Assembly: GCA_030265505.1 (NCBI GenBank)
Contig: JAJDGD010000007.1
Coordinates: forward strand, 1-42,828
Direction of reading: 5' to 3'
Origin: Ruminococcaceae bacterium OttesenSCG-928-O06
GTDB taxonomy: Bacteria; Bacillota; Clostridia; Oscillospirales; Ruminococcaceae
Length of the DNA: 42,828 bases
A program made the translations under genes and the position numbers. This document shows positions 36,188 to 42,828 of the stretch, piece by piece. The notes beneath the pieces are model-generated. The model had not been told where the DNA came from and searched no databases. It saw only the letters and a list, made by a program, of their open reading frames with translations. Within the stretch, counting starts at the first letter, position 1. Each line of letters opens with the position of its first letter.

Positions 36188-37345
36188 CTAGTCTTCCTCG
36201 GTCTCGGCCGTTTTGCCCGGCACCAGCTGGCGCTCTTCGTTAAAGTGCATGGGCTGCACGGTGTTGCGGGTAAGGCGCACCAGCTCCCGCAGGCGCTTTT
36301 CTTCGTCGGGCATGTACAAAATGTACGCAACACCCTCTTTTTTGGCGCGGCCGGTGCGGCCTATGCGGTGGGTGTAATATTCGTTGCTGGGCGGCACGTC
36401 ATAGTTTACCACGGCGTCCACATCGTCCACGTCTATGCCGCGGGCGGCAACGTCTGTGCTTACCAGCACGGGCAACTGGCCCTCTTTAAAGCGCCCCATA
36501 ATCTTGTTGCGCTCCGCCTGGGAGAGGTCTCCATGCAGGCAGTCCACGTCAAAGTTCAGCCGGGCCAGCTGGTTGGAAAGCATGCCCGTGGTGTATTTGG
36601 TGTTGCAGAACACCATCACCCGCTCGTACCCGCCGTTCACAATGATGGCGGCGAGGTCTGCCAGTTTGTTGCGCCCGGTGGTGAGGATGGAATACTGGGT
36701 GATGCGGGGCTGGCTGTCTTCCACCGGCTGCACGGTAATTTCCACGGCGTCGCGCTGGTACAGCCAGCCAATGTCCATCACCTCGCGGCTGATGGTGGCG
36801 GAAAACATGCCCAGCTGCTTTTTGTTTTTCAGGCTGTCCAGTATTTTGCGCACATCCTTGTAAAAGCCCATGTCCAGCATCTCGTCCGCTTCGTCCAGCA
36901 CCACGCGCACAACGCCGCCCAGCTGCACGGTGCGCCGCTGCATGTGGTCCAAAAGGCGGCCGGGGGTGGCTACAATAATCTGCGGGCCTTTTTTCAGCTG
37001 GTCGAACTGCTTTTTAATGTCCTGCCCGCCGTACACGCAGGCAATGCGCACGTTTGGCAGAAAATGTGCAAGCTCGCGTAAATCGCCGGTAATCTGCTGG
37101 GCCAGCTCACGCGTGGGGGCCAGCACTAGGGCCTGGGTGGTGTCGCTTTCGGCGTTCAGCCCCACCAAAAGCGGGATGCCGAAAGCACAGGTTTTGCCCG
37201 TGCCCGTGGGCGCCTTGGCAATCACGTCCTTGCCCTCCATCATGGGGGGCAGGGCTTTCTCCTGCACCTCGGTCATCTCGGTAAAGCCCATGCGCTGCAC
37301 GGCGTCTTGTATCTCTTTGGGTAAATCAATGTCTTGAAACAGCAT
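36188..37345 (-). CDS. DEAD/DEAH box ATP-dependent RNA helicase
   Basis: MLFQDIDLPKEIQDAVQRMGFTEMTEVQEKALPPMMEGKDVIAKAPTGTGKTCAF...VLDEADEML...SATI...[13 protein letters not shown]. Confidence 0.95.
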   Translation of the reverse strand: MLFQDIDLPKEIQDAVQRMGFTEMTEVQEKALPPMMEGKDVIAKAPTGTGKTCAFGIPLLVGLNAESDTTQALVLAPTRELAQQITGDLRELAHFLPNVRIACVYGGQDIKKQFDQLKKGPQIIVATPGRLLDHMQRRTVQLGGVVRVVLDEADEMLDMGFYKDVRKILDSLKNKKQLGMFSATISREVMDIGWLYQRDAVEITVQPVEDSQPRITQYSILTTGRNKLADLAAIIVNGGYERVMVFCNTKYTTGMLSNQLARLNFDVDCLHGDLSQAERNKIMGRFKEGQLPVLVSTDVAARGIDVDDVDAVVNYDVPPSNEYYTHRIGRTGRAKKEGVAYILYMPDEEKRLRELVRLTRNTVQPMHFNEERQLVPGKTAETEED

Positions 37346-37565
37346 GCTTGTGTGTGTCTCCTTTGTTGGTGGCAACAATATATAAAAATTTGTATAGACG
37401 TACTTTTTCGGTGTGCGCAGTCTGGCCCGCCGCAGGCGGTTGGCGTACGGCGCGGCCCTTGGCGTTGGCTGCCTTGTGGCGGTGCGCAAGGCGCCTGGCG
37501 GCATAAACGCCCCTATATTTTAGCACACACCCCGCCGCCACACAAGGGCGGTGCCACGGCGCTGC

Positions 37566-37594
37566 TTTACTAACCCTTCCCGATGCTTTATAAT
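37566..37594 (+). promoter_or_regulatory. Putative promoter of the DRTGG/HATPase/[FeFe]-hydrogenase cluster
   Basis: TTTACT-N17-TATAAT. Confidence 0.55.
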
Positions 37595-37641
37595 GTACAT
37601 ATAGCAGGGTATACCGGGCCGTGCAAGGACGGAGGAAATGT

Positions 37642-37998
37642 ATGAGGATAAGCGAGATCATCACAACGCTGGGGGCCGAGGTGCTTACCGAGGGGGCGGA
37701 TACTTCCCGCGAGGTGCACGCGGCTTGCGGCAGCGACATGATGAGCGATGTGCTGGCCTATGTGAAGGACCAGGGCGTGCTAATCACCGGGCTTACCAAC
37801 CCCCAGGTGGTGCGCACCGCCAGCATGATGGACATGGTGTGCATCGTGTTTGTGCGCGGCAAGCGGCCGGACAATACCGTGCTGCAACTGGCCGAGGAGT
37901 TTGGCATCATTGTGCTTGCCACCCAGCACACCATGTATAATACCTGCGGCATGCTGTATGAAAAGGGCCTGCACGGCGGCAACAACACCGCGCAATAG
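37642..37998 (+). CDS. DRTGG domain-containing protein
   Basis: MRISEIITTLGAEVLTEGADTSREVHAACGSDMMSDVLAYVKDQGVLITGLTNPQVVRTASMMDMVCIVFVRGKRPDNTVLQLAEEFGIIVLATQHTMYNTCGMLYEKGL; RBS GGAGG. Confidence 0.85.
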   Translation: MRISEIITTLGAEVLTEGADTSREVHAACGSDMMSDVLAYVKDQGVLITGLTNPQVVRTASMMDMVCIVFVRGKRPDNTVLQLAEEFGIIVLATQHTMYNTCGMLYEKGLHGGNNTAQ

Positions 37999-38034
37999 CC
38001 TGCTTTCATCTGCATTTTCTGCGAAGGAGCGCAT

Positions 38035-38457
38035 ATGCCCAACATCCATATGCATTACGTCGTCCCCGGGGACGACTTTACCCGTGCGGGCGAGGCCAGC
38101 GCGGATTTGAAGGCCCGGCTGAAAAAGCTGGGCATGCCCAGCGACGCCGTGCGCAAGGTGGCCATTGCCCTGTACGAGGGGGAGATCAACCTGGCCATCC
38201 ATGCGGGCGGGGGCGAAATTGAGGTGCAGGTATTTCCCGACAAGGTGGAGATGACCCTGACCGATACCGGCCCCGGCATCCCCGACATAGACCTTGCCAT
38301 GCGTGCGGGGTGGTCCACCGCGCCGGACGAAGTGCGCAGCCTGGGCTTTGGCGCCGGCATGGGCCTGCCCAACATGAAGAACTACGCCGATGATTTCGAG
38401 ATAGAATCTGAAGTAGGGGTGGGCACCCGTGTGTTTATGCGGGTGAACGTGGCGTAA
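38035..38457 (+). CDS. HATPase_c (anti-sigma/serine kinase-like) ATP-binding protein
   Basis: VRKVAIALYEGEINLAIHAGGGEIEVQVFPDKVEMTLTDTGPGIPDIDLAMRAGW...LGFGAGMGLPNMKNYADDFEIESEVGVGTRVFMRV: N and G boxes, no H-box. Confidence 0.9.
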   Translation: MPNIHMHYVVPGDDFTRAGEASADLKARLKKLGMPSDAVRKVAIALYEGEINLAIHAGGGEIEVQVFPDKVEMTLTDTGPGIPDIDLAMRAGWSTAPDEVRSLGFGAGMGLPNMKNYADDFEIESEVGVGTRVFMRVNVA

Positions 38458-38591
38458 AACGCCCGCCCGCGCCGGCCGCAGCGCCTTGCGCGTAGCGGCC
38501 ATAGCCCATACAAAATACTGCACAAGGCCTTTTTTGCGGCGCGCGGGTGTTTGCGGCACACGCCGGCGCCGCCCAAAGAAAGCGAGAAGCC

Positions 38592-39866
38592 ATGTCCGAT
38601 TATTTCCATTCCGTTACCCTTGACAAGGACGAATGCAAGGGTTGCATCAACTGCATAAAGCGCTGCCCCACCCAGGCCATTCGGGTGCGGGACGGCAAGG
38701 CCCACATCATCACAGAGCTTTGTATAGACTGTGGGGAGTGTATTCGCGTGTGCCCGCACCACGCCAAAAAGGCCATTACAGACCCCTTGTCCATCATGGA
38801 CAACTACCGCTACAAGGTGGCGCTTACCCCGCCCAGCCTGTACGGGCAGTTCAACAACATAGAGGACCCGGACCTGGTGTTTGCCGCGCTGAAGGACATC
38901 GGGTTCGACGAAGTATTTGACGTGGCGCGCGCGGCCGAGCTGGCCAGCGACGCCACCCGCCGCATGCTGGCCACCGGTGCCATGCCAAGCCCGGTCATCT
39001 CCTCGGCGTGCCCGGCGGTGCTGCGGCTGATACGCGTGCGCTTCCCCAGCCTGATAAACCGGGTGCAGCCGCTGGTGGCCCCGGTGGAGATTGCCGCGCG
39101 CATGGCCAAGGACGAGGCCGAAAAACGCGGGCTGAAGCGCGAAGAGGTGGGGTGCATCTTCCTTACGCCCTGCCCGGCCAAGGTGACGGCCATCCGCATG
39201 CCCATAGGCACCGCCACCAGCGACATTGACGCCGCCGTGGCCGTGAAGGATGTGTACCCGCTGCTGGTGGGCGCCATGAAGCACGCCAAAGACGAAGCCG
39301 AACGCCCCCAAAGCGGGCGCATTGGCATTGGCTGGGCCGAAAGCGGGGGCGAGGCCGCGGGCCTGCTTACCACCGACGCCTACCTTGCCGCCGACGGTAT
39401 CGAGAACGTCATCCGCGTGCTGGAGGACTTGGAGGACAACAAGTACGCCAACATCGAGTTTGTGGAGCTGGACGCCTGCAGCGGCGGTTGCGTGGGGGGC
39501 GTTTTGCAGGTGGAGAACCCCTATATCGCCAAGTCCAAAATCAAAAAACTGCGGCGGTATATGCCCGTAAGCATGAACCATCTGGAGGAGGATATCCCCG
39601 CCCACATGCTGTGGGATACCGACCTGGAGTATTCCCCGGTGATGGAGCTGGGGAAAACAAAGCAGGAAAGTTTTGAAAAATACGCCGAATTTGAAGATAT
39701 CATGGAAAAACTGCCAGATTTAGACTGCGGTAGCTGCGGCGCGCCCACCTGTGAGTCCTTCGCGGAGGACGTGGTGCGGGGCAACGCCGTGTTGGGAGAT
39801 TGCGTGGTGCTGATGCGTAAAAAGATGGAGGCCATATTGAAGGCGGCCGGCCTGGATGGAACGTAA
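38592..39866 (+). CDS. Sensory-type [FeFe] hydrogenase large-subunit-like protein with 2x[4Fe-4S] N-terminus and C-terminal Fe-S domain
   Basis: CKGCINCIKRCP and CIDCGECIRVCP; H-cluster motifs SSACPAVLRLI, TPCPAKV, DACSGGCVGG; C-terminal DCGSCGAPTCESFAEDVVRG. Confidence 0.92.
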   Translation: MSDYFHSVTLDKDECKGCINCIKRCPTQAIRVRDGKAHIITELCIDCGECIRVCPHHAKKAITDPLSIMDNYRYKVALTPPSLYGQFNNIEDPDLVFAALKDIGFDEVFDVARAAELASDATRRMLATGAMPSPVISSACPAVLRLIRVRFPSLINRVQPLVAPVEIAARMAKDEAEKRGLKREEVGCIFLTPCPAKVTAIRMPIGTATSDIDAAVAVKDVYPLLVGAMKHAKDEAERPQSGRIGIGWAESGGEAAGLLTTDAYLAADGIENVIRVLEDLEDNKYANIEFVELDACSGGCVGGVLQVENPYIAKSKIKKLRRYMPVSMNHLEEDIPAHMLWDTDLEYSPVMELGKTKQESFEKYAEFEDIMEKLPDLDCGSCGAPTCESFAEDVVRGNAVLGDCVVLMRKKMEAILKAAGLDGT

Positions 39867-40081
39867 AAACGAAAAATTTTGCACCGTGCAGGCATAGCTG
39901 CAGCCGCGCCCGCGGCCGAACGGCCCCGCCCCGGCGGGCGGCACCATTATTCCTGCAATAATCTCGCAAAAATCCCCGTAAAATCAAGAAGAACAGAGTG
40001 TGCGGGAAAAGCATGGATTTCTAACAGATACGGTTAAAATAGTGCTTGATTTGTAGAAATAACGAACTTTTAGGAGGCCCT

Positions 40082-40414
40082 ATGACCACCGATGATTTTG
40101 CCCAAATGCCCGATTTTACGGTGGCGGTGCCCGGCGAGAGCCGGCCGGTTGCCTCGGTGTACTGCGCCGATTTGCTGAGCTGGGCCATGGGCCGCGCGCC
40201 GGCAGACGCCGCCTGGTGCACTGTGATGGGCAACGTGAACGCCGTGGCCGTGGCCCACCTGGCCGATGTTGCCGCCATTGTGCTGTGCGAGGACGCCGTT
40301 TTGGACGAGGACGCCCGCGAAAAAGCGGCCCAACAAGGGGTAATCATTGTGCGCACGGGCTTGCCGGCCTTTGCCGCGGGGGTGGCCATTGCGCAGCATG
40401 CCGGGCTGCTGTAG
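40082..40414 (+). CDS. Second DRTGG-like domain protein
   Basis: PGESRPVASVYCADLLSWAMGRAPADAAWCTVMGNVNAVAVAHLADVAAIVLCEDAVLDEDAREKAAQQGVIIVRTGLPAFAAGVAIA; RBS TAGGAGG. Confidence 0.8.
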   Translation: MTTDDFAQMPDFTVAVPGESRPVASVYCADLLSWAMGRAPADAAWCTVMGNVNAVAVAHLADVAAIVLCEDAVLDEDAREKAAQQGVIIVRTGLPAFAAGVAIAQHAGLL

Positions 40415-40498
40415 CGCCGCGGTGTGCAGAACGTGCGCGGGCATATTCCAAAATAACAAACGATTCTGCATAGGAAAAGGCGGGAAGAAGGTGAGACG

Positions 40499-41188
40499 GT
40501 GACATACGACCTCCACATCCATTCCTGCCTTTCCCCCTGTGCGAACGACGACATGACCCCCACCAACATTGCGGGCTTTGCCAAACTAAACGGCATTGAT
40601 TTGATTGCCGTGGCCGACCACAACAGCGCCCTAAACCTGCCGGCCACGGCCCAGGCCTGCGAGGCCTACGGGGTGCGGCTGCTGCCCGCCATAGAGATGA
40701 ACACGGCGGAGGAGATTCATCTTCTGTGTTATTTTGCCCGGGTGGAGGATGCCTTGGCCATGGGGGAAGCCATTTACGAAAACCTGCCCCGCTACCCCTA
40801 CGACCATGAAATTTGGGGCCGCCAGCTGGTGATGGACGCTGAGGAGAATACCATTGGCGAGGTGGACAAGCTGCTTACCGCCGCCTGCACACTGGATTTA
40901 TACGCCGCCAAAGCCCTGTGCGAAAAGCTGGGCGGCATTGCGGTGCCCGCCCATGTGGACAAAGAGAGCACCTCGCTGCTGTCTGTTTTGGGCTTTGCGC
41001 CCGAGGACCTGCCCTTTGCCGCCTATGAGGTGAAGCGGCCGGAGCATACCCTGGCCGCCCTGTGGGAGAGTGGCCGCCTGCCCGCCGGGGTGGAGATTTT
41101 GACCAGCAGCGACGCCCACAGCCTGGGCGAGATACCTGAGCACCCGCGCACGCTTTCCCCCCAAAGCTGCCTGTGGCGGCTGCTGTAG
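40499..41188 (+). CDS. PHP domain-containing phosphoesterase
   Basis: (GTG) TYDLHIHSCLSPCANDDMTPTNIAGFAKLNGIDLIAVADHNSALN...LLPAIEMNTAEEIHLLCYF...AVPAHVDKES...SSDAHSLGE. Confidence 0.93.
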   Translation: MTYDLHIHSCLSPCANDDMTPTNIAGFAKLNGIDLIAVADHNSALNLPATAQACEAYGVRLLPAIEMNTAEEIHLLCYFARVEDALAMGEAIYENLPRYPYDHEIWGRQLVMDAEENTIGEVDKLLTAACTLDLYAAKALCEKLGGIAVPAHVDKESTSLLSVLGFAPEDLPFAAYEVKRPEHTLAALWESGRLPAGVEILTSSDAHSLGEIPEHPRTLSPQSCLWRLL

Positions 41189-41371: not shown

Positions 41372-41548
41372 TTGGGCAGCCGCACCACGCCGGCGCCGGG
41401 CTCCCTTTCAAGAGAGAATTTCTTGCTCGAAGCCTAAAAAATGGCGAAGACAAACAGAAAGTTTGAACATATAGAAACAGACGACGAAACGGAACAACAA
41501 TTCTCCCGGCTGCGGCGCGGGACGCATAGAATGGACGGAAGCAAATAC

Positions 41549-42828
41549 ATGACCTTTCAGGATTTACAGCTTGACGCGCCCCTGTTGCGGGCAGTAAAAG
41601 AGGCGGGCTATGCACGGCCCACCCCCATACAGCAAAAAGCCATTCCCCCGGTGCTGGCCGGGCGGGACCTTTTGGGCTGCGCCCAAACCGGCACCGGCAA
41701 AACCGCCGCCTTTGCGTTGCCCATATTGCAGCGCCTGGCGGCAGCGCCTATTCCCCAGGGGAAGGGGCGCTTGCCGCGCGCGCTGGTGCTTACCCCCACG
41801 CGCGAGCTTGCCCTGCAGATAGAGGAGAGCTTTGTATTGTATGCAAAGCACCTGAAACTGCGCAGCGCCGTAATTTATGGCGGGGTGGGGCAGGCGCCCC
41901 AGGTGCAGCAGCTAAAGGCGGGCGTGGATATTTTGACGGCCACCCCCGGCCGCCTGAACGACTTGATTGGCCAGGGGTATATCAAACTTTCGGCCATTGA
42001 GGTGTTTGTGCTGGACGAAGCCGACCGCATGCTGGACATGGGCTTTGTGAACGACGTGAAAAAGGTGATAGCCCACCTGCCCGCGCAGCGGCAAACGCTG
42101 CTTTTTTCCGCCACCATGCCCGGGGAAATTGTGCAGCTGGCAAACAGCCTGCTAAAAGACCCGGTGAAGGTGTTTGTTACCCCGCCTGCCACCACGGTGC
42201 AGGCCATTGCCCAGCAGCTGTACGGGGTGGAAAAGGCCGACAAACGCAAGCTGCTGGCCCAGCTGCTGCAAGCAGGCGACGTGCAAAGCGCCCTGGTGTT
42301 TACCCGCACAAAGCACGGAGCCGACCGCGTGGTGCGCGATTTGAAGCGCGACGGCGTGGCGGCGGCGGCCATCCACGGCAACAAAAGCCAAACTGCCCGG
42401 CAAACGGCCCTGGCCCGCCTGAAAAAAGGCGAGATACAGGCCCTTGTGGCCACAGACATCGCCGCGCGGGGCCTGGATATCAACGAGCTGTCCCATGTGT
42501 TCAACTACGACTTGCCCAATATCCCCGAGACCTATGTGCACCGCATTGGCCGCACCGGGCGGGCGGGCCACGGGGGCATTGCCGTAAGTTTTTGCACGCT
42601 GGACGAATACCCCTACCTGTTGGACATTGAAAAGCTGATAGGTTTTGCCTTGCCCCGCGCAGAGGGGCACCCCTGGCACCTGCCGCTGCCCACCGGCGCC
42701 GCGCCGCAAAAGGCCCCGGCCCCCAAAACCGCCGGCAGCGCCGCCCGCACCAAGCAAAAAACTACTGCGCCCGCCGCGAAAAACCAGCAGAAACCCGCGG
42801 CCAAGGCGCAGGAAAAGCCTGCCGCAAA
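41549..42828 (+). CDS. DEAD/DEAH box helicase (RhlE-like), truncated by the window end
   Basis: Not in the ORF track because no stop is reached. [55 protein letters not shown]...[13 protein letters not shown]...SATMPG...[13 protein letters not shown], then Lys/Ala/Pro tail. In-frame ATGs at 41441 and 41531 are alternative starts. Confidence 0.95.

Follow-up and report, generated by a model that had tools for sequence, protein, structure and literature searches.

The 42,828-nucleotide stretch of DNA analyzed here (the window; positions 1 to 42,828 of contig JAJDGD010000007.1, assembly GCA_030265505.1) comes from Ruminococcaceae bacterium OttesenSCG-928-O06, a metagenome-assembled genome (MAG) that is about 64% complete. 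An open reading frame (ORF) list and Pfam matches place five genes on its + strand at 37642-41188, which encode, in this order, a DRTGG-domain protein (DRTGG1), a small SpoIIAB-like HATPase, a hydrogenase-like iron-sulfur protein (HydS), a second DRTGG protein (DRTGG2), and a PHP-family protein. Judged by order and spacing, the five genes form one predicted operon, a widespread and fixed syntenic unit. HydS, by its sequence hallmarks, is a new member of the group D (M2e) putative sensory [FeFe]-hydrogenases, of the same type as TamHydS from Thermoanaerobacter mathranii. We lean towards the interpretation that this module is an H2/ferredoxin-redox sensing operon that specifically serves the electron-bifurcating [FeFe]-hydrogenase HydABC, with a wiring between its parts that we infer.

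Conservation and products of the five-gene unit

Within the window's family, 71 of 149 genomes carry a HydS orthologue, as do 184 of 391 genomes in a class sample and 157 of 399 in a phylum sample. The order DRTGG1-HATPase-HydS-DRTGG2-PHP, with all five genes on one strand, was present in 107 of 120 class loci, a set that was not random (60 loci came from the window's family and 20 were picked for absence of HydF). All five genes stood in the same order in 21 of 25 loci of other classes, each a 4-kb stretch. The set therefore recurs more than chance would allow. Median gaps between successive genes are −4, 31.5, 8, and −1 base pairs (bp), which means that overlapping stop and start codons are frequent. 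No + strand terminator-like site was found between the five genes, and one lies inside the PHP gene. Clustering of the ORFs adjoining the module in 100 loci revealed, hyd genes aside, no further recurrent neighbor, and no sigma factor, STAS protein, response regulator, or phosphatase. Promoter-like sites number 4 against 1.5 ± 1.2 in shuffled sequences, which is weak by itself; the one assigned to the operon has counterparts at the equivalent place before DRTGG1 in two sister genomes, as TTTACT-N17-TATAAT in G147 and as TATAAT in G041.

The HydS sequence scores 100 bits against Fe_hyd_lg_C and 47 bits against the C-terminal FeS domain PF04060, and it carries two N-terminal [4Fe-4S] motifs whose cysteines, C15 to C54, are conserved across 109 HydS sequences with one substitution. 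Across its relatives, the residue equivalent to Cys299 of CpI is mostly Ala and that equivalent to Met353 mostly Ser or Thr, while E254 and E292 are conserved in 105 and 108 of the 109 sequences, respectively. When mapped by spacing rather than by alignment to the TamHydS sequence, S251, E254, D268, and E292 match the TamHydS proton-path residues S249, E252, D265, and E289 at near-identical distances. Pfam detected no PAS domain in HydS. All sequence features that we checked thus agree with a group D assignment.

The HATPase scores 41 bits against HATPase_c and 40 bits against HATPase_c_2, lacks a histidine phospho-acceptor domain, and has an anti-sigma F factor as its closest match in the PDB (1.1e-8). 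It also matches the anti-sigma F family TIGR01925 at 4.6e-15, with a score of 55.7 bits that lies under the 135-bit cut-off of that family. The catalytic Glu and the Mg-binding Asn of SpoIIAB have their aligned counterparts in E48 and N52, and the GHKL lid motifs are present. The two DRTGG proteins are diverged paralogues. DRTGG2 reaches only 14 bits in the window, but since its orthologues score 29-33.5 bits against a cut-off of 25.2, the label is correct. In both paralogues D32, S35, and T49 are essentially invariant; R58, R72, and K74 are conserved in DRTGG1 only, where they may form an anion or nucleotide site, and DRTGG2 is devoid of these Arg and Lys residues. In the PHP protein, the PHP-type metal-site residues H6, H8, D40, H41, E66, H74, H152, D205, and H207 are invariant among relatives. 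AlphaFold models built from alignments of three rows were of too low quality to support structural conclusions (pLDDT, the predicted local distance difference test score, was 52 for HydS and 59 for the PHP protein); Foldseek searches with them still ranked [FeFe]-hydrogenases and PHP structures first, respectively, which adds little.

A sequence-only reading of the window had described five same-strand genes with such motifs behind a TTTACT-N17-TATAAT promoter: two DRTGG-type proteins, an H-box-less HATPase of the anti-sigma/serine-kinase fold, a sensory-type [FeFe]-hydrogenase, and a PHP protein. All of these were recovered here (Table 1). Its proposal of an H2/redox signaling module gains support as a reading of a conserved operon, given that the gene-neighborhood survey it had called for found the synteny upheld in other genomes; the signal flow that it suggested, from the HATPase to the DRTGG proteins and with the PHP protein acting on a ligand, is conjectural.

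Table 1. Coordinates of the promoter, genes, and HydS motifs in the window.
Feature	Position	Strand	Basis or remark
Putative sigma-70 type promoter, TTTACT-N17-TATAAT	37566..37594	+	Pair and spacing as in sister G147; -10 kept in G041
DRTGG1, 118 aa	37642..37998	+	PF07085, 45 bits (cut-off 25.2)
HATPase (GHKL), 140 aa, SpoIIAB-like	38035..38457	+	Pfam, TIGR01925, PDB match
Putative sensory [FeFe]-hydrogenase HydS of group D (M2e), 424 aa	38592..39866	+	Pfam, residue checks, comparison with PMC8163306, PMC10407848, PMC13104023
Two N-terminal [4Fe-4S] motifs, C15 C18 C21 C25 and C44 C47 C50 C54	38634..38753	+	
H-cluster motif L1, SSACP	39000..39014	+	A139 instead of proton-transfer Cys (C299 of CpI); ligand C140 present
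H-cluster motif L2, TPCPAK	39165..39182	+	T192 for Met353, ligand C194, K197
H-cluster motif L3	39477..39491	+	Ligands C296-x3-C300
C-terminal CX2CX4CX16C [4Fe-4S] motif, C379 C382 C387 C404	39726..39803	+	Plus D378, D403
DRTGG2, 110 aa, diverged DRTGG1 paralogue	40082..40414	+	14 bits in window; orthologues 29-33.5 bits
PHP-family metallo-phosphoesterase, 229 aa, GTG start	40499..41188	+	Pfam PHP, 26.4 bits, equal to the cut-off

Genes for DEAD-box RNA helicases lie on either side of the module, at 36188-37504 on the − strand and at 41441-42826 on the + strand. The upstream helicase-DRTGG1 junction is common to the window and G041, and the downstream junction to the window, G147, and G041. 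A role of the module in defense was rejected, as PADLOC returned no match.

Hydrogenase operon and maturases in related genomes

The bifurcating hydrogenase operon hydC (NuoE-like)-HATPase-hydD-hydB-hydA (hydCDEBA) was in view at 83 of the 120 class loci. It is divergent from the module in 49 of these, downstream in 22, and upstream in 4, while in the remaining 8 the module sits between hydC and the other genes. In 19 of the 25 loci of other classes, hydC directly follows PHP. Gene position thus indicates that the module belongs with HydABC, whose operon it usually adjoins or is placed within. The sequence-only reading had taken the cluster for a stand-alone sensor, a description that its relatives do not support. 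In G147, hydA-B-D-HATPase-C is divergent from the module, after which comes the DEAD-box helicase also present in the window; in G041, the hyd operon is located about 26 kb downstream of the module on the contig that carries HydS.

In other genomes, the HydA linked to the module carries a TSCSPGW L1 motif, with Ser in place of one ligand of the [4Fe-4S]H cluster. The closest PDB match of one such protein (locus L004) is HydA1 of Acetobacterium woodii, which has the same motif and is a known active enzyme; loss of HydA function was therefore rejected as an explanation. The HydA proteins of the window's genus (L080 of G147 and L206 of G041) show the canonical TSCCPGW motif.

HydF is present in 140 of the 184 module-bearing genomes of the class sample and absent in 44 (43 without the window's own incomplete assembly), and HydG was also absent in 35 of the 38 HydF-less genomes tested, most of which have a group A HydA. 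No HydE, HydF, or HydG above cut-off is encoded by 21 well-assembled genomes of the window's family that carry the module. Several near-complete genomes (G008, G020, G051, G211, G464, and others) have intact H-cluster residues in both a group A HydA and the group D HydS and neither HydF nor HydG, nor HydE where tested; G211, G464, G020, and G051 are assembled in one or two contigs. Supported branches of the HydS tree require at least 17 changes between presence and absence of HydF. Nevertheless, whether or not HydF is there, the [4Fe-4S]H ligands of HydS do not vary, apart from one gapped row; C140, C194, C296, C300, K197, E254, and E292 are equally conserved with and without HydF, and so are the L1-L3 motifs of HydA. 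Four further genomes (G030, G142, G040, and G094) have HydE and HydF, with HydG not over cut-off, possibly an intermediate state of maturase loss.

One account of these observations, which we consider doubtful though worth stating, is that an unknown maturation pathway supplies the [2Fe] subsite or some other cofactor, or that HydS and HydABC work without [2Fe], in which case the module would not sense H2 but act as a ferredoxin-redox switch. A limited literature search found no discussion of maturase-less [FeFe]-hydrogenases in gut bacteria. If upheld, the occurrence of intact H-cluster sites without known maturases would cast doubt either on the accepted path of H-cluster synthesis or on the function assigned to these proteins, in anaerobic bacteria that are abundant.

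Proposed mechanism and alternatives

Under the interpretation that we prefer, HydS would use its H-cluster and the chain of N-terminal [4Fe-4S] clusters to sense H2, the redox state of ferredoxin, or both, and would shift its conformation, a change that might reach the SpoIIAB-like ATPase by direct contact. This ATPase would act as a serine/threonine kinase or an ATP-dependent switch. The DRTGG1/DRTGG2 pair would be its client, either phosphorylated, with the conserved S35 and T49 as candidate sites, or binding a nucleotide or phosphate ligand as an adaptor, and the PHP enzyme would reset the system by hydrolyzing the phospho-signal. The output would most likely be control of HydABC activity or assembly, exerted jointly with the second HATPase encoded in the hyd operon; control at the post-translational level seems likelier than control of transcription, since the module has no linked gene for a DNA-binding protein, a sigma factor, or a STAS protein.

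Several points weigh against this interpretation. The absence of HydF and HydG from many module-bearing relatives implies that H2 sensing via a HydEFG-made H-cluster is not universal. At 37 of the 120 class loci no hyd genes were in view, although some of these are cut by contig ends. The kinase activity of the HATPase, the phosphorylation of the DRTGG proteins, and the substrate of the PHP enzyme are hypothetical. Finally, HydA was not found in the 64% complete MAG of the window, and hydCDEBA is absent from the window itself. The lack of HydA, HydE, HydF, and HydG in this assembly says little, however, given its incompleteness and the end of the window 1.6 kb after PHP, and the absence of hydCDEBA from the window can be attributed to this contig end and to a local relocation as also seen in G041. 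A chimeric contig as the cause of the missing hyd operon was rejected, because G041 has the same helicase-DRTGG1 junction.

A rival possibility is that the module senses ferredoxin redox state and not H2, with HydS relying solely on its [4Fe-4S] clusters or on a cofactor from a source other than HydEFG, and tunes HydABC as an NADH/ferredoxin enzyme. This would account for the module-bearing genomes without HydF and, in most of those tested, without HydG, for the 21 well-assembled family members without HydE, HydF, and HydG, and for the repeated changes in HydF state. The equal conservation of the H-cluster ligands and pocket in HydF-less genomes would be odd, however, if the [2Fe] subsite were dispensable, and TamHydS does bind an H-cluster and turn over H2 (PMC8163306); we regard a sensor of ferredoxin alone as unlikely.

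The tight linkage to hydCDEBA, which extends to insertion between hydC and hydB, could also be taken to mean that HydS and the GHKL ATPase serve in assembly or quality control, as a scaffold or chaperone that helps to load HydABC with Fe-S clusters or the H-cluster, the DRTGG and PHP proteins being accessories. GHKL folds include chaperones. The HATPase of the A. woodii operon has, moreover, been proposed to act in assembly or signaling (PMC3315566). Yet the nearest relatives of the module's HATPase are SpoIIAB-type kinases, the properties of TamHydS resemble those of regulatory hydrogenases (PMC8163306), and the 37 modules without hyd genes in view do not fit well with such a function, which we hold to be quite improbable. 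These same 37 loci, together with the absence of any hydABC gene from the window, are what speaks for an orphan sensor with an unlinked output. This explanation is highly improbable in view of the 83 linked loci and of the positions of hydCDEBA in G147 and G041. The interpretation as an H2/ferredoxin-redox sensing operon for HydABC accordingly remains the one that we favor.

Comparison with known systems

The module's HATPase resembles SpoIIAB and RsbW in being a small stand-alone GHKL ATPase with a catalytic Glu/Asn pair and DxGxG and GMG motifs; unlike them, it has no linked STAS antagonist or sigma factor, and its TIGR01925 score lies below the cut-off. The group C (M2f) hydrogenases TmHydS and R. 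albus HydS share with HydS of the window an N-terminal [4Fe-4S] region, an H-domain without Cys299, a C-terminal [4Fe-4S] region, and a location near hydrogenase genes. Group C proteins, however, have a PAS domain, and that of R. albus also a Ser/Thr phosphatase part, neither of which is found in the module. A second HydS-like family of about 565-600 residues, with 27-30% identity over residues 8-414 and about 150 extra residues, is probably of group C type; it is present in many of the same genomes (e.g., G120:C48 and G067:C64), in some near a further hydrogenase gene. The window's genome also encodes a second hydrogenase-like protein, of 656 residues (L001:481-2451, contig C58), in which Fe_hyd_lg_C and FeS domains are combined with an MCP signaling domain, a putative further type of sensory hydrogenase; it adjoins a GGDEF diguanylate cyclase gene at L001:2667-3680.

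The A. woodii operon hydC-hydE(HATPase)-hydD-hydB-hydA1 equals in gene content and order the hydCDEBA operon found beside the module in related genomes, although the five-gene module is not described for that operon in PMC3315566.

The closest counterpart of HydS is TamHydS, the only characterized group D hydrogenase (PMC13104023), which carries an H-cluster, catalyzes H2 turnover at a slow rate, and resembles regulatory hydrogenases in its properties (PMC8163306); H2 does not reduce its C-terminal cluster (PMC8163306, PMC13104023). The two proteins agree in domain order, the C-terminal CX2CX4CX16C motif, Ala for Cys299, Ser/Thr for Met353, and the group D proton-path residues (PMC8163306, PMC10407848, PMC13104023), and even the residue numbers of the C-terminal motif are identical (PMC13104023). 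Group D is further marked by H2 turnover that is slow and bidirectional and by a change of conformation induced by H2. Group D hydrogenases are frequently encoded in the same operon or neighborhood as a group A hydrogenase, and TamHydS is reported to have a HATPase neighbor and to be encoded upstream of a bifurcating hydrogenase of group A. The named neighbors of TamHydS are, however, the HATPase and an AraC regulator, and the set conserved in the window's relatives contains no recurring AraC. While this class of sensor is already known, the DRTGG-HATPase-HydS-DRTGG-PHP wiring was not found described in the open-access literature that we searched. The 2026 study of TamHydS stated that interaction partners need to be identified for its signaling to be understood (PMC13104023). 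The conserved operon names four, the HATPase, DRTGG1, DRTGG2, and the PHP protein, as the best candidates for signaling partners of the sensor hydrogenase, and HydABC as the candidate target, and it thereby makes the question directly testable.

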